64,000 bases of DNA from Bacteroidia bacterium. GTDB lineage: Bacteria > Bacteroidota > Bacteroidia > B-17B0 > Aurantibacillaceae. The DNA lies in contig JAEUTO010000010.1 of the NCBI GenBank assembly GCA_016787785.1, forward strand, positions 124,001 through 188,000. The letters are read 5' to 3'. Positions 34,244 to 39,056 of the stretch are shown here, one piece after another. The notes beneath the pieces were generated by a model. That model did not search any database, was not told where the DNA came from, and worked only from the letters and a program-made list of their open reading frames with translations. The position numbers and the translations under genes are program-made. Within the stretch, counting starts at the first letter, position 1. Each line of letters starts with the position of its first letter.

Positions 34244-34350
34244 ACCAAACGTTTTGTGTGCTGTCGCTAAATTTACAAAAGTTCGATCGAATTTAAAAAG
34301 TAAGCAGTAAAGAAGCTGGTGAGTATTTTTTTCTATCTGCTCTGTTACGC
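34244..34350 (-). repeat. attC-like element 1 (weak)
   Basis: Read on the minus strand, it opens GCGTAACAGAGC and closes ACAAAACGTTTGGT. Both ends match the other elements of the array, but the arms pair poorly. It lies between the receiver-like gene and the AHSA1 gene. Confidence 0.4.
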
Positions 34351-34371
34351 ATTTGTTTATTGCGTTGGTTT

Positions 34372-34671
34372 CTATAACCTGTCTGGAAATGCTGCTTTTA
34401 AATCGTTTAAAACTGTTTGTGGATGAGCATCAATGATTTTAACATTGGGGTTTATCTTTGGAAATTCCAGATGAAACAAATTCCTACTTTCTGTGTCAAC
34501 ACCTCCGCCAATAATAACAGCATCTATGGTGTCTGACTTGAAAGCTAAAATTGCTTCTTCATTTGTTATTTTGCCAATTGAATTGTATCCATGCTGCTTT
34601 AGCATATCAGTAATTTTAGTAAGCATATCTGCATGTCGTCCTATTATTAAAACTTTTTCTCCGTGTCCCAT
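34372..34671 (-). CDS. Short receiver-like domain lacking phosphorylation Asp
   Basis: 99 aa. The layout is like a shortened response-regulator receiver: strand 1 KVLIIGRHAD, helix DMLTKITDMLKQHGY, strand 3 DAVIIGGGV, then helix and strand NPNVKIIDAH. The acidic pair after strand 1 and the phospho-acceptor Asp after strand 3 are not evident (Gly runs instead), and no output domain is attached. It is probably a cassette protein with a non-phosphorylated receiver fold. It is flanked by attC-like elements 1 and 2, and no partner kinase is adjacent. Confidence 0.55.
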   Translation of the reverse strand: MGHGEKVLIIGRHADMLTKITDMLKQHGYNSIGKITNEEAILAFKSDTIDAVIIGGGVDTESRNLFHLEFPKINPNVKIIDAHPQTVLNDLKAAFPDRL

Positions 34672-34730
34672 AAGATTTTTTTTGCATTATAAACAAAATA
34701 TTCCGTAAACTCATTATAACTGCCATCGAT

Positions 34731-34873
34731 GCTAACGGTTTGCGACCTTGCGCCTGTGGCTTTTGAAACCGATAACTGTCTGCCGGTACCAACGTTTATT
34801 AATTGTTCAAATTTTTATATTAGCTCTGTCCGTCCAGTATTAACAAACCCGCGTCAGTGGTTTGTTGTTTAAA
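34731..34873 (-). repeat. attC-like element 2 (degenerate)
   Basis: On the minus strand the 3' end reads GCAAACCGTTAGC, which matches the array consensus. The 5' end (CTTTAAAC) is diverged, and only short arm segments pair. It lies between the TrmO-like and receiver-like genes. Confidence 0.4.
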
Positions 34874-34878
34874 GAAGG

Positions 34879-35337
34879 TTACTTCCAATAATTTTTCATA
34901 AGGTCTGCAACCCAAACAGGTTGTCTAATTTGTTCTTTTGGTTGAAACTCTTTAAACACAGGTTTAATGTCCAGCACAGGTGTTCCGTCAATTGCGTCAA
35001 GATATTTTACTTTTATTGTGCGTCCTTTGTGTTCTAAAAGTTCAACGGTGCAAAGTCCGATCGTATTTGGTCGGTCTTTTTTACGTTGTCCGAAAATGCC
35101 AACTAGGGGATAATTGGGATTTCCCCTTGGTCTGCCAGAAAAAACTATGTCTTCGGGTTTAACTTTGTCGAAGTAATAAATAATTTCGAGGTGTGAAAAA
35201 TCCGAAATATTTTCAAATGCTTCGGTCGGAATATGGTCAGCAAGCTCAATGTCGGCAATAACTGCTTCCCAAAAGTCGTCGGTTGGTGTTGTCCTGGAGT
35301 TTTTTACTGTTGCAACTGAATTTAATTTAACTTCCAT
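34879..35337 (-). CDS. TsaA/TrmO-like SAM-binding protein
   Basis: 152 aa, about the length of a single TsaA domain and shorter than the 235 aa of E. coli TrmO, which has an extra C-terminal domain. Family segments: FENISDFSHLEIIYYFDKV, SGRPRGNPNYPLVGIF, DRPNTIGLCTVELLE and YLDAIDGTPVLDIKPV. TrmO methylates t6A37 in threonine tRNA using SAM bound in a trefoil barrel. Whether this short form has that activity is uncertain. It sits in the cassette array between elements 2 and 3. Confidence 0.8.
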   Translation of the reverse strand: MEVKLNSVATVKNSRTTPTDDFWEAVIADIELADHIPTEAFENISDFSHLEIIYYFDKVKPEDIVFSGRPRGNPNYPLVGIFGQRKKDRPNTIGLCTVELLEHKGRTIKVKYLDAIDGTPVLDIKPVFKEFQPKEQIRQPVWVADLMKNYWK

Positions 35338-35370
35338 TTTTTTGTTTATTTATTGTTGTTTTACAATGGC

Positions 35371-35586
35371 TGGTAACGTTTGGCAAGCTTGCGCTTGCGG
35401 TTTATGAAACTTCCTTTGCCTGCCCGAACGACTTTTTTGTCGGGCGGGTCTGCCCGCCGAAACGATTATTAAATGTACAAATGTTTATTAGCAAAGCCAA
35501 ACGAAAATAGCTGTCTGCGAAGCAGGCTTTAAATTGGCTTTGCGATCTGCCGGTCCGCCCGCATTGCGCTTAGCCGCTGTTATGTT
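35371..35586 (-). repeat. attC-like element 3
   Basis: On the minus strand it opens CATAACAGCGGCTAAGCGCAA and closes with GCTTGCCAAACGTTACC. The arms are imperfectly complementary. The 216-bp length leaves room for nested GC-rich hairpins in the middle (for example around 35430-35465, GTCGGGCGGG). Confidence 0.6.
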
Positions 35587-35605
35587 TTGCCAGCCGCACA
35601 CAGTT

Positions 35606-36934
35606 TTATTCGTTTCTGCTTAATTGCTCAATTCTGCCGTCTTCGTAATAGGTTATTATTTCTTTGACGTCGCCTTTTGAATTTGAGACAAACTCTACTA
35701 TAAATGAATCATTACCGAGAAGTCGCATTTTATTTTCTGTCATTGAAACTAATGGGAATTTTGTTCGTCCAACTCTTTCGTAATACAAGTGATTACCTGA
35801 GAAAGAAATGTCAGTATAACTATACGTTCCTATTCTTTTTTTGAGTTTGAGAGAGTCTATTTGCGGCTGATTGTTTTTTGCTTTCAATAGTTCAAGTTGC
35901 CATTTTAAATTATTTATTTCGACGGAGTCTTTTGCTATTTTAAAGTAACTTTCAAATATTTTTATTTCAGCAACCTCTAACGCTTTATCTGCAGTAGTTT
36001 TTATGTCAGAAGAAATACCAACACCTTCCCAATTTGTTTTCGTTGTTCTAGAATATGCTTTACCGTGTGGCAAAGCAATAATAAAATCTTTATACAGAAA
36101 AGATTTTGGTGCATTATGAGCGCCGCCCCTTGTCTGTTCACCTACAATGGTGACTCTTTTTTCAGTTTTAAGAAAATAGGTTAACATTTCAGCAGCGGAA
36201 AAAGTCTTGTAACTAGTCAAGATATACAGAGGCGTTTCATAAAGACCAGTATAATTTGAATCAGGCTCGCAATATAAATTGTAATTTTTTTCGCGATTAC
36301 GAAGTGTTAATTCAAACATGTGTTTTCTTTCTTTTATAAAGTGCTTTGCAATACAAGCAACCATTTCGGGCTGTCCGCCCATACCATAACGTAGGTCGAT
36401 GATTATTGCTTTGCAATTTGAAAGAGTTTGAAATGAAGCGTCGGCAACTTTTTCAGACTCTGGATTTAAATAAGCAAAATAGCTAATGTCAACATAGCCA
36501 ATATTGCCATTTAAAACTTCTATTTTTTTAAATCCATGATTTTTAGATCTGTCAAGTTTTAATTGCTTGGCCCAATAAACAGAGTCGCGAGGCAAACTTA
36601 ATTCCAGAGATAAGTTAGGATTATATTCAATAAAAAAGTGTTCGTCATTATGAACGCTTAAAACGTCTTTGGTTAAAATGTCCGCAAGAATGCTTGGGTT
36701 TGTGATTTTATTGTAAAGTCCGTCTTTGTATTTTTTATTAATAAATGCGCTCATTTCAGTCCCTTTGTCTGGAAGCACATAATTGTGTTCAAGTTTAAAT
36801 GTAAGAGTGTCAATAATTTCTTTTACAATTTTTTGATTAAGAATTAGTGAGGTATTTGTCTGTGAACTTAAACTTAATACGAATATGATTTGAAAAACGA
36901 AGAAGAGTCGGATTGTTTTTAACTGAATTGTCAT
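35606..36934 (-). CDS. Exported S41 family peptidase-like protein
   Basis: 442 aa with a signal peptide (LFFVFQIIFVLSLSSQ). The S41 (tail-specific/IRBP-like) core is present: VLNGNIGYVDISYF, CKAIIIDLRYGMGGQPE, LYILTSYKTFSAAEMLTYFL with candidate nucleophile near Ser246, VGEQTRGGAHNAP and IALPHGKAYSRTTKTNWEG. No PDZ domain is obvious; an N-terminal helical domain and a C-terminal beta region (residues ~370-440) flank the core. It is probably a periplasmic or surface serine hydrolase. It lies alone between attC-like elements 3 and 4. Confidence 0.8.
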   Translation of the reverse strand: MTIQLKTIRLFFVFQIIFVLSLSSQTNTSLILNQKIVKEIIDTLTFKLEHNYVLPDKGTEMSAFINKKYKDGLYNKITNPSILADILTKDVLSVHNDEHFFIEYNPNLSLELSLPRDSVYWAKQLKLDRSKNHGFKKIEVLNGNIGYVDISYFAYLNPESEKVADASFQTLSNCKAIIIDLRYGMGGQPEMVACIAKHFIKERKHMFELTLRNREKNYNLYCEPDSNYTGLYETPLYILTSYKTFSAAEMLTYFLKTEKRVTIVGEQTRGGAHNAPKSFLYKDFIIALPHGKAYSRTTKTNWEGVGISSDIKTTADKALEVAEIKIFESYFKIAKDSVEINNLKWQLELLKAKNNQPQIDSLKLKKRIGTYSYTDISFSGNHLYYERVGRTKFPLVSMTENKMRLLGNDSFIVEFVSNSKGDVKEIITYYEDGRIEQLSRNE

Positions 36935-37003
36935 AGAAGTTATTGGATGAATGTCGTCATAATTTAGTAGGATGTCTTTACTGGTCTACGTCCGGCTGGT
37001 TGA

Positions 37004-37099
37004 ACATAACGTTTTGCAGCTACTTGCAGTTTTTTGCTTGTCCAAGTTATACATTTGAGCGTTAACACGCAAAAAATTGGGCTTAGGCGCTGTTAGCGG
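37004..37099 (-). repeat. attC-like element 4
   Basis: On the minus strand it opens CCGCTAACAGCGCCTAAG and closes GCTGCAAAACGTTATG. A TTTTTTGC arm near the start pairs with GCAAAAAA near the end. Length 96 bp, between the EF-Tu-domain-like gene and the S41 peptidase gene. Confidence 0.65.
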
Positions 37100-37107
37100 T
37101 AGTATTT

Positions 37108-37587
37108 TTACGTCCAGGATGTTTCGTCTAATATTTCTAAAATTTCAGCGTCGCCAATTTTATTACCTCCTTCATGAATAAACCATTGTCGACCCACATT
37201 GATGTATTTTTCTAATGGCATACTCAACATAAAGCAAACTGTAACGATCGCTTCTTCTCCGGGCATGAAAAGTTTGTCGCCTTCAAACCGTATTTCTCCA
37301 ATAAATGTCCTGATAATACCGTCTGGATAATATTCAAATACATGATTGGGTCTAAAGCTTGATCTGAACCCCGTTTTCCTGTTGTTATTTAGTTTAAGTC
37401 GAGCCTTAACAAACAATTCGCTCATTTTTTCAAACTTCTGGTCGCGAATACTTGTCAAGGTATATTTGTCGTAAGCCATGACGTCAAATATTTTTGATTG
37501 TCCCGTGTCAAGCCAGCGTTTATAAATAAGCACTCCATCGATATACAAATAGAGTTCGTTGCCTTTTATTTCTTTAAAAATACTCAT
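37108..37587 (-). CDS. Stand-alone EF-Tu domain-3-like protein
   Basis: About 159 aa from ATG 37587; a GTG at 37614 would overlap the upstream stop (GTGA). Residues from about 55 match EF-Tu domain 3 in order: a KARLKLNNNRKTGFRSSF strand like the EF-Tu segment before YRPQFYF, RPNHVFEYY, then KLFMPGEEAIVTV (EF-Tu MPGDNV), and INVGRQWFIHEGGNKIGDAE (EF-Tu GLRFAIREGGRTVGAG). The N-terminal part (YLYIDGVLIYKR) resembles the preceding barrel. There is no GTPase domain. It forms a two-gene cassette with a PD-(D/E)XK protein, so a toxin/antitoxin or defence role is a guess. Confidence 0.6.
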   Translation of the reverse strand: MSIFKEIKGNELYLYIDGVLIYKRWLDTGQSKIFDVMAYDKYTLTSIRDQKFEKMSELFVKARLKLNNNRKTGFRSSFRPNHVFEYYPDGIIRTFIGEIRFEGDKLFMPGEEAIVTVCFMLSMPLEKYINVGRQWFIHEGGNKIGDAEILEILDETSWT

Positions 37588-37610
37588 GTCTACAAATGTT
37601 GAGAGCAGAA

Positions 37611-38426
37611 TCACTTTGGTGATATAATTACTTTAACGTTAAAGTTATTTTTTCCATGCTGTCCTGTAAGGTCATTTTCTAGAGCCGTTGGATTTTGTAT
37701 ATTTCCATCTGGATCATATACAAAACAAAATAACGTTTCACAATCGGGATGGGTTTCGTAACGTTTGATGTCAATGATTAGTTGCTCACCTATTTTTTTG
37801 TCTTTTAGTCTGCTGGAGGCGTATTTTGCCTCAATAATGATTTTCTCTTTTTTCAAAAGGAAATCGATTCTCGATGATGAACCTGCATAACTCGGGCAGT
37901 ATTCTTCAGGTCTTACGTCGTCGAAGTAACATTTTAAAACTGCATGTAAAAGGTCTTGAATGTCATATTCGTCTTTAACTTCAATTGTTGAACGCTGGTC
38001 ATGCCTCCTTTTTAATTGTCTTACCGAACGGTCTATTTTATTTAGTATTTGTTCGATTATTTGAAAAGAAGTTGTTTCCTTACTTGGCGTTTCCTTGGCT
38101 TTTGTTTTTAACCAAGGAAGTTCTTTTATTTCTTCTCTAAGCGCTGATGCAAGTGATTCAAGTCCGTAACCATAAAAAGATGTCTTGTCAAACTGGAGTT
38201 TAACAGACTTGTTTGATACAACGTCAATATCGATATTACCAGTCACTGTTTCTCCTGAGTAATTTTGCGGAAAGAATTTACTAATGTGTACGTTGGCATA
38301 TTTAAAAGATTTTGTATCCTTATTTTGAATGGACGTACTCCAACCTTTACCATTGGCAACCTTAACAATCAAGTCTAATACTTCGTTGTATTGGGTTTTT
38401 ATAGGGTTTGTTTTTGTCTTTGCCAT
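37611..38426 (-). CDS. PD-(D/E)XK nuclease-like protein
   Basis: 271 aa. The C-terminal half has the nuclease fold core: SSRIDFLLKKEKIIIEAKY gives the D-x(10)-ExK pattern (about D188, E199, K201), followed by a helix (KIGEQLIIDIKRYETH) and strand LFCFVYDP. The preceding YDIQDLLHAVLKCYFDD fits DpnII/MboI-like members. The N-terminal ~110 residues are unknown. It ends 23 bp before the EF-Tu-domain-like gene (or overlaps it if that starts at GTG). Both lie in one cassette between attC-like elements 4 and 5. It may cut DNA or RNA; the target is unknown. Confidence 0.75.
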   Translation of the reverse strand: MAKTKTNPIKTQYNEVLDLIVKVANGKGWSTSIQNKDTKSFKYANVHISKFFPQNYSGETVTGNIDIDVVSNKSVKLQFDKTSFYGYGLESLASALREEIKELPWLKTKAKETPSKETTSFQIIEQILNKIDRSVRQLKRRHDQRSTIEVKDEYDIQDLLHAVLKCYFDDVRPEEYCPSYAGSSSRIDFLLKKEKIIIEAKYASSRLKDKKIGEQLIIDIKRYETHPDCETLFCFVYDPDGNIQNPTALENDLTGQHGKNNFNVKVIISPK

Positions 38427-38449
38427 TTTTTGGGTCTGTCTTAATATTA

Positions 38450-38565
38450 CCGCTAACGTTTTGCGGCTACGAGTTGTGCCGCTGTCCGTGAAGTTAAATG
38501 TAAGGAAGTCCGCCGAAAGTTACAATACCGAAATGTGCGGCATAACTTGTAGGTGCTGTTAGCGG
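38450..38565 (-). repeat. attC-like element 5 (best conserved)
   Basis: On the minus strand it opens CCGCTAACAGCACCTACAAG and closes GTAGCCGCAAAACGTTAGCGG. Near-complementary arms include TATGCCGC against GCGGCACA. The TAA stop of the upstream cassette gene (38561-38559) falls inside the first box, as often happens at integron cassette ends. Confidence 0.7.
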
Positions 38566-38936
38566 GTCGTGCTTTTATATAGTTTGTGTCCGCACCAAGG
38601 ACAGTAATTAATTTTAATGAACGAAGTCCCACCGTCGTGAATTGGAATACCAAACTCTTTGCGTTTCGTTGTCAGCATAATTGAGTCGTAATTTATTTTT
38701 GTCTTACGTTTAGTTTTTTTGTCCTCGATTAAATGATAAGCCATGTCCAGACAACAATATTTGTCCGGATTTAAACCTGCGGATTTAATTTGACGCTTTA
38801 AAGTCCAGTCAATACATTTTTTGTCATTGAGTAATGCGTCTTGGTACTTTTTAAAGTCGTCTGTGTCTTGAATGTCCTTTGAAGTAGGAAACTTAGAATA
38901 TTTTTTGTCTAAGACTTTAAATGTCGATAATTTCAT
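38559..38936 (-). CDS. DUF6980-like zinc-ribbon protein
   Basis: 125 aa. A CCLDMAYHLIE segment near the middle and the C-terminal IPIHDGGTSFIKI followed by YCPWCGHKLY fit the small DUF6980-type family with a zinc ribbon, whose function is unknown. I recall related proteins as accessory cargo in other bacteria, but cannot verify it here. Its stop codon lies within attC-like element 5, and its start is 22 bp after the half-site at 38958. It is the first cassette of the array in the direction of transcription. Confidence 0.65.
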   Translation of the reverse strand: MKLSTFKVLDKKYSKFPTSKDIQDTDDFKKYQDALLNDKKCIDWTLKRQIKSAGLNPDKYCCLDMAYHLIEDKKTKRKTKINYDSIMLTTKRKEFGIPIHDGGTSFIKINYCPWCGHKLYKSTTR

Positions 38937-38957
38937 TGTCTGTTGTCCTAAAGCATG

Positions 38958-38990
38958 CCCGCTAACTATTCGCTAAGTGCACCTTTTCTG
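38958..38990 (-). repeat. attC-like half-site at the array's right edge
   Basis: On the minus strand GCACTTAGCGAATAGTTAGCGG ends like the 3' box of the other elements. I cannot identify a matching 5' box, so this is the right boundary of the array, perhaps a truncated site or attI-like. Confidence 0.4.
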
Positions 38991-39056
38991 TTTGTAAGCG
39001 TTTGTAATTATTTGTAAGTGCTTATTGTCGCATATCAAATATATAAAATTAAGACC

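Follow-up and report, generated by a model that had tools for sequence, protein, structure and literature searches.

An integron-like cassette array with its own class of hairpin site in a Bacteroidia genome, and the associated tyrosine recombinase with a HARP-like domain

The cassette array and its hairpin sites

We examined a stretch of 64,000 nucleotides (hereafter the window) from a Bacteroidia bacterium of the family Aurantibacillaceae (assembly GCA_016787785.1, contig JAEUTO010000010.1, positions 124,001 to 188,000 of the forward strand), in which five gene cassettes lie in a row on the minus strand, from 38966 down to 34247, and palindromic elements separate the minus-strand genes. A preliminary description of this DNA, made from the letters alone, had counted five such elements; three of them (at 35374, 37007, and 38454) are intact, whereas the two nearest position 34250 are degenerate and do not fold significantly. 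The features are given below in the order of the minus strand (aa, amino acids; ORF, open reading frame).

38963..38966, minus strand: left array border, the initial GTTA of cassette 1, with ..CACTTAGCGAATA before it
38458..38966, minus strand: cassette 1, 509 bp, with a DUF6980 gene (38559-38936) and a hairpin site
38454..38561, minus strand: attC-like element 5, 108 bp, from pattern, scanner, and fold
37011..38457, minus strand: cassette 2, 1447 bp, with a DpnII-MboI-type restriction endonuclease gene (37611-38426) and a 168-aa ORF (37108-37614)
37007..37095, minus strand: attC-like element 4, 89 bp, from pattern and scanner
35378..37010, minus strand: cassette 3, 1633 bp, with an S41 peptidase gene (35606-36934)
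35374..35582, minus strand: attC-like element 3, 209 bp, long-loop class, from pattern and scanner
34737..35377, minus strand: cassette 4, with a TrmO_N-domain gene (34879-35337); borders by eye
~34733..34856, minus strand: degenerate element 2, by eye; CAAACCGTTA is kept at its end, but the left end reads TGAC
34251..34736, minus strand: cassette 5, with a 99-aa ORF (34372-34671) without a Pfam match; borders by eye
~34247..34347, minus strand: degenerate element 1, the right array end (..CAAAACGTTTGG), by eye; TAACAGAGC..CAAAACGTTT

Read on the minus strand, the three intact boundaries share the layout TAAC-A-GC, arm, loop, arm, GC-(A/C)AAAC-GTTA. The elements at 38561-38454, 37095-37007, and 35582-35374 begin with TAACAGC and end in GC(A/C)AAACGTTA, which agrees with the end boxes proposed earlier for the three best elements, and the half-site reported beyond them is the GTTA at 38966-38963, i.e. 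the start of the first cassette. A custom scanner detected 3 elements in the window and 0 in its reversed sequence; Rfam contained no match for the elements. When each element was folded alone and compared with shuffled sequences, only the one at 38454 was significant (z -4.12), and the others were not (37007, z -0.41; 35374, z -1.34; bottom strands of degenerate elements 2 and 1 not more stable than shuffles, z +1.25 and -0.81). The elements at 37007 and 35374 gained long outer stems only after the start of their own cassette was added.

A feature that the preliminary description had overlooked is the complementarity of a cassette's start to its own end: the first ~18 nt (GTTA and ~14 nt) tend to complement the bases that precede the TAAC of the cassette's own element. 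For cassette 2 of the window, the start at 38443-38457 is 93% complementary to 37092-37106 over 15 nt. Among 80 units, pairing of own start with own end was 3.875 at the inner five positions compared with 1.91 for shuffled pairs (S.D. (standard deviation) 0.12, maximum 2.275) and 3.89 compared with 1.93 at the outer seven (S.D. 0.15, maximum 2.36; 2000 shuffles), and in 134 units thinned to 119 clusters it was 7.70 of 12 positions compared with 3.81 (S.D. 0.16, maximum 4.30). Position 10 of the start is A in all 80 units and faces C in 58, a fixed mismatch within the outer stem; it is likewise A in 134 of the 134 units of the enlarged set. The inner arms behave similarly. In 153 elements picked by their end motifs alone, positions 2-12 pair at 0.61-0.95 compared with 0.22-0.55 in shuffles, a fixed mismatch follows at position 13 (mostly A facing C), and pairing then resumes; thinning to 48 clusters leaves 7.75 of 11 compared with 4.27 (S.D. 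0.23, maximum 5.08). Because the start pairs with the end and the inner arms pair with each other, the site of a circular cassette would form one long hairpin. In this predicted circular form, replacing a unit's own start by a random one makes the bottom strand less stable in 117 of the 134 units, and in 122 the bottom strand has the higher stability of the two strands. Three features mark the sites: the inner loop is asymmetric (1:5), the outer stem runs past the R box, and there are fixed mismatches. The folded site would comprise, from outside inward, an outer stem of ~7 bp and 5 bp around a fixed C.A mismatch, then TAAC/GTTA, the 1:5 loop (A opposite MAAAC), and an inner stem with the second fixed mismatch.

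Elements of this kind recur in the window's family, where the pattern TAACAGC-N40-100-GCMAAACGTTA gave 103 matches (hand-summed) in 37 of 87 genomes and the reversed pattern gave 3. Phylum-wide, the strict pattern was present in 6 of 395 genomes, the window's own included, one of which (genome G304; G, L, C, and U numbers are our labels for genomes, loci, contigs, and units) looks chance-like by eye. In 182 fetched loci (2.55 Mb, many selected for holding elements or the recombinase described below), scanning yielded 230 different elements together with 134 units, compared with 0 in reversed sequence. One array (G052, contig C1) has 17 elements over ~25.5 kb in a single orientation. The longest ORF has the same sense as its unit in 123 of the 134 units and the opposite sense in 8, and the 123 co-oriented proteins fall into 74 Pfam families at E ≤ 1e-5, only five of which occur in more than one protein. 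Pattern and scanner stand in place of a covariance model: a 36-position model built on the element ends was dropped because it failed to bridge the loops, its best matches in the window's genome being a 28-bp element, end fragments, and probable chance matches. When the end pattern was loosened to allow 2 mismatches, chance matches predominated (724 in the control, compared with 562 in the actual search). We note a 28-bp minimal element (TAACAGCAAGCCATGGCGCAAAACGTTA) at L011 2142-2169, apparently a deletion form almost without a loop.

Regarding the surroundings of the array, a border like that of the window (GCTTAGCGAGTA/GTTA, the slash marking the border) also occurs in L264 of another genome. 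Three TTTGTAA iterons with 10-bp spacing lie at 38991-39017, immediately outside the array start, and L264 has a similar iteron-like block, in the opposite orientation, before its GTTA. The YceI and 132-aa genes to the left of the array are also neighbors in G041 and G011, where the 3.4-kb stretches fetched contain no element; the identity of 55-57% is too low for a base-exact reading of an empty site. No methyltransferase partner was seen in the restriction endonuclease cassette, the only other ORF of which has no Pfam match.

Sharing of units between genomes

The preliminary description had named the gain and loss of whole units among related strains as a check of the cassette reading, and units do recur between genomes, with left breaks at GTTA. 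Two genomes of the window's genus (G024 and G019) share a 1436-bp unit at 98% identity, and its 60-bp flanks are only 40% and 32% identical; the AAAAC/GTTA border lies at both sides, and the hairpin travels with the unit. Further, cassette 3 of the window recurs in G011 (L264 10298-11737) with 86% identity over positions 1-1440 and unrelated flanks, and cassette 1 has a homologue in another genus (G051), 86% identical over positions 1-408 of 509 and ending at TAAC. Across 42 cross-genome alignments (at least 200 nt of the unit's gene part; the queries contained the flanks as well, and the set includes reciprocal alignments and alignments of a shared unit), the left end lies inside the gene in 28; 14 reach the border, where 12 stop, at GTTA, and 2 run past. 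The right end lies inside the gene in 28, at TAAC in 6, at the unit end in 6, inside the hairpin in 1, and beyond the unit in 1.

The associated recombinase and its attI-like site

In the window's family, the best matches to the integron integrase (IntI) model below its cut-off fall mostly on one group of tyrosine recombinases of ~350-400 aa, which precede arrays. These proteins match Pfam PF00589 (E 9e-41) and carry the phage-integrase signature R..H-x-x-R..H..Y of tyrosine recombinases, with Arg-231, His-321, Arg-324, His-347, and Tyr-356 invariant in a 31-row alignment. Among 114 recombinase rows (three of them duplicates, none with elements; seven recombinase loci of other families were excluded from the set), 51 elements lie within 10 kb downstream of the gene, every one on the recombinase strand, and 2 lie upstream, in more than twice the sequence; none is on the opposite strand, and 4 of the 51 come from two loci fetched for their elements. 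The integron-like, one-orientation architecture described earlier is supported. Within the 87 genomes, elements and recombinase occur together in 30, elements alone in 7, recombinase alone in 27, and neither in 23 (Fisher p 0.012; a hand-counted table in which the recombinase column includes some other recombinases).

The region behind the recombinase gene contains a candidate attI site. Self-complementarity located the first cassette in 26 rows (a few ambiguous). In 14 of them, the distance from the stop codon to its start is 74-117 nt, mostly with a TATA-containing attI-like sequence in front; by eye, about half of the other 12 follow an element-like end and three or four an attI-like sequence, and the remaining two (L205 and L206) had no clear assignment. 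The motif TATA-N3-5-R/GTTR is present within 160 nt past the stop codon in 54 of 109 rows, compared with 34 of 2280 random windows, and with duplicates removed in 52 of 106 loci, 38 of which have the TATA 80-96 nt past the stop codon. The window's own genome encodes such a recombinase on contig C6 (425555-426679) with the attI motif 90 nt past the stop codon; this contig ends 1030 bp past the gene, so that an array attached to it is not seen. Many other contigs also end shortly after the recombinase gene.

Named carriers with downstream elements include metagenome-assembled genomes (MAGs) of Chitinophaga, Flavobacterium, and Pedobacter, as well as Algoriphagus ornithinivorans, a Cyclobacterium MAG, and Arundinibacter roseus. 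The recombinase is also on two Chryseobacterium plasmids, and on the SNU WT5 plasmid two relaxed-threshold elements lie downstream of it. At E ≤ 1e-40, phage records yielded a single integrase relative, a partial one, and the named matches listed in a BFVD fold search are integrases and recombinases. Many plasmids, nearly all from Acinetobacter, carry shorter relatives (51.5% over the catalytic part), and in NZ_CP094530.1 a tyrosine recombinase adjoins an IS91 transposase. An attI-like dyad with TATAN..TA/GTTA and cassettes, with no recombinase of the family reported alongside, is present at ~880 of L011 (contig C7 of the window's genome, after thiL), and attI-like sites with cassettes occur likewise in L093, L261, L269, L273, and L100. 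Relatives followed by possible units bounded by terminal inverted repeats (TIRs) were noted in a Spirochaetes MAG (L231) and a Nitrospirae MAG (L232), for both of which binning errors are possible, and in Fusibacter sp. 3D3 (L242). The scan of divergent loci, whose opposite-strand control is void because the unit ends are palindromic, gave Fusibacter, Nitrospirae, Spirochaetes, F. palustre, and plasmid GTTG units that are suggestive only.

The recombinase differs from IntI. Four whole recombinases scored 199-214 bits with the IntI model TIGR02249 (cut-off 265), and all 14 control genomes match this model at the default E-value, so that weak matches mean just "tyrosine recombinase." The insertion of ~45 aa around patch III, which marks IntI, is absent from the recombinase rows aligned. 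In a quick tree, which left out one mis-extracted IntI row and three others, a clade with support 100 unites the 12 IntI rows and separates them from the array recombinases, and 18 Bacteroidota-type recombinases are grouped (support 80; 94 for 17 of them). The best NCBIfam match of the four proteins is NF040815 (XerA), at 210-225 bits with a cut-off of 220 that one exceeds, and the top Protein Data Bank profile matches are 4a8e and 5hxy; these matches start only after an N-terminal domain. We know of no cassette array or attC for XerA.

This N-terminal domain, the first ~72 residues, resembles HARP. At E ≤ 1, Pfam HARP (PF07443) was matched by 9 of the 43 domains (best E 7.1e-6) and DUF5710 by 18 (best E 2.8e-5), and its top Protein Data Bank profile match was the HARP domain of SMARCAL1 (4o66, E 0.0022). 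A predicted model of the isolated domain (predicted local distance difference test score 89.6) placed 4o66 at ranks 1-2 in Foldseek, weakly (E 0.08-0.1, best 0.083). VIA-align was led by the N-terminal domains of T4 UvsW and archaeal XPB (Z 7.4-6.5, root-mean-square deviation 1.6-2.2 over 53-59 residues), whereas 4o66 reached Z 4.5. The likeness to SMARCAL1 HARP, UvsW, and XPB covers both profile and fold at modest Z (4.5-7.4), and unlike in those proteins, the domain is fused to a tyrosine recombinase and not to a helicase motor. HARP, UvsW, and an XPB are named as strand-annealing proteins, and the HP domains of SMARCAL1 are said to drive strand annealing, in the accessible text of PMC3409536; such an activity would fit a protein that must handle folded single strands. 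We also note recombinases of 538-572 aa (L172, L213, L214, L217, L220, and L236) that probably contain several HARP-like repeats (L172, by eye), and tyrosine recombinases outside the array clade with a HARP-like N terminus by eye (L145, L147, and L245).

Relation to integrons and rival explanations

The system shares much with a classical integron such as the Vibrio cholerae superintegron, namely one-orientation cassette arrays, a hairpin after the gene, AAC/GTT ends, an attI that adjoins the integrase, and a bottom strand that folds best. It differs in its recombinase, which is without the patch-III insertion of IntI and carries an additional domain at the N terminus, and in an attI-like site that lies behind the 3' end of a co-oriented integrase gene. 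The sites differ as well: the loop is 1:5 and asymmetric, compared with an attC spacer of ~5 nt per arm, the outer stem derives from the cassette's own start, and both stems carry fixed mismatches. By the attC features given in the available part of PMC2727003 (R box, two-sided unpaired central spacer, and L box with extrahelical bases), the R and L arms and the strand asymmetry are present, the spacer is 1 versus 5 nt, and mismatches replace single extrahelical bases. In the accessible account of the Treponema-type chromosomal integron (PMC3607928), transcription of the integrase gene likewise runs toward attI, the same way as the cassettes; that integron, unlike the present system, has a true intI, and the same account mentions no HARP-like domain. 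An IntI-defined integron has an integrase with an additional domain around patch III, as far as the text available from PMC9668308 and PMC8138268 goes. Further marks of that family are one-orientation arrays in which most genes have no promoter, and attI x attC recombination catalyzed by IntI. Because this defining domain is absent, the array system is not a member of the IntI-defined family. A search of titles and the beginnings of abstracts in the open-access literature, with most subscription papers and bioRxiv outside its scope, found no description of such a system.

The finding is larger than the preliminary description reported, in that it is an integron-like system with a recombinase and an attI-like site of its own. 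We consider it probable that the window contains a detached array of a second integron type, i.e. the equivalent of a cluster of attC sites lacking an integrase (CALIN), the recombinase of which is encoded elsewhere in the genome. What the sequences show is the sites, a complementarity that persists while the letters vary, the logic of the units, an attI-like motif, elements that adjoin the recombinase gene on its own strand, and the sharing of units between genomes; from these sequence patterns, we infer that the system works like an integron. The recombinase with the HARP-like domain would be the catalyst of cassette recombination and one folded strand its substrate. In the mechanism that we propose, the recombinase, encoded elsewhere in the genome, probably recognizes the cassette site as a folded single strand, which the HARP-like domain may read or anneal, and would exchange it at GTTA with attI, typically ~90-105 nt past its own stop codon; cassettes would in this way enter behind the integrase in one orientation.

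Several observations weigh against this reading. The window array has no adjoining integrase and no clear attI. Strict elements are found downstream in only 26 of 114 integrase rows and 13 of 80 named loci, and in 18 of the 44 rows that have at least 3 kb of downstream sequence; the attI motif is absent from about half of the recombinase loci; and 7 of 37 element-bearing genomes have no recombinase at the threshold used. HARP-bearing recombinases do not form one clade (approximately unbiased test, p 0.012), and the array-bearing Arundinibacter protein (L217) falls outside the group of 18. Unrelated aIF1/eIF1 proteins appear in the same VIA-align list at Z 6.8-6.1, so that the fold evidence is by itself not specific. 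Finally, in several homologous pairs (cassette 3/G011, cassette 1/G051, U27, and U100), similarity stops at about TAAC and a different hairpin follows, that after the G051 homologue being too degenerate for the scanner. Because similarity ends there and another hairpin comes next, hairpins and genes seem to be exchanged partly independently. For classical attC, the accessible part of PMC2727003 reports that loss of extrahelical bases raises recombination of the other strand and moves the exchange point to the R'' box, which is one possible parallel. Homologous cassettes in L264, L269, L097, and L346 keep the gene from GTTA to about TAAC and then have different hairpins.

Of the rival explanations, the one that survives best, although we regard it as unlikely, keeps the same recombinase and has it act on double-stranded or cruciform DNA instead of one folded strand. 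The dyads seen by eye in the attI sites and the palindromic nature of all arms would suit this, but arm sequences vary with their pairing kept, and the predicted stabilities of the two strands differ (bottom better in 122 of 134), as strand choice predicts.

The preliminary description classed the array as CALIN-like; in IntegronFinder terms, a CALIN is at least two attC sites recognized by the attC covariance model with no IntI close by. We find it improbable that the window contains an ordinary CALIN, in which a canonical IntI, since lost or encoded at another place, had moved attC sites that have diverged. The R''-L''-L'-R' order and the AAC/GTT ends do match attC, canonical IntI scores over the cut-off in 105 of 395 sampled Bacteroidota genomes, and G042 and G370 each have both a canonical IntI and an element of the new type. 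(That frequency is above what the accessible text of PMC9024848 would lead one to expect; the same text, on IntegronFinder 2.0, gives Salinibacter ruber as the complete integron newly found in Bacteroidetes proper.) However, IntI exceeds the cut-off in only 1 of the 87 family genomes and nowhere in the window's own genome, where the best match to TIGR02249 scores 112 bits; the earlier statement that the window has no intI agrees with this, although no search was limited to the window. Moreover, elements of the new type are present at 0 of 19 canonical-IntI loci (stretches of at most 20 kb), some of which carry classical-looking attC (e.g. L313 and L321), and the elements stand in a single orientation behind a different tyrosine recombinase. 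The different site structure, with its 1:5 loop, outer stem, and fixed mismatches, speaks against ordinary attC, and a further possibility raised in the preliminary description, a new attC-like class, is supported.

Least probable of all is that a transposase placed TIR-bounded genes (GTTA..TAAC, with inverted ends of ~18 bp) between palindromes that are separate terminator-like or REP-like (repetitive extragenic palindromic) repeats, a view favored by the inverted repeats at the units' own ends, by the 6 of 14 right ends leaving the gene that do so at TAAC and not at the unit end, and by the differing hairpins of homologous cassettes, but opposed by the strictly single orientation, the retained pairing and fixed mismatches of the hairpin arms, the unit that moves with its hairpin, and the integrase and attI motif at the head of many arrays.

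On the preferred reading, that of a second integron type, we tentatively raise the possibility, which we rate below even chances, that structure-guided capture arose or was re-engineered a second time, when an Xer-like recombinase that had at no time possessed the IntI insertion gained an annealing-type HARP/UvsW/XPB domain that folds or reads single-stranded hairpins; exchange would then occur at either arm, gene and hairpin would be separate modules, and the system would extend to plasmids and beyond Bacteroidota.

A single integrase family has served to define integrons and, through its models, to find them. Here, the integron logic of attI, hairpin sites, cassette arrays, and shared units appears with another recombinase and another site, and software based on IntI and attC models would be expected to miss such a system, even though a strict pattern detects it in 37 of the 87 genomes of one family. 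It adds a diverse cassette pool and, in Chryseobacterium, two plasmid-borne recombinases, and it offers a natural comparison for asking which parts of an integron are essential, the IntI insertion or just the reading of a folded strand.

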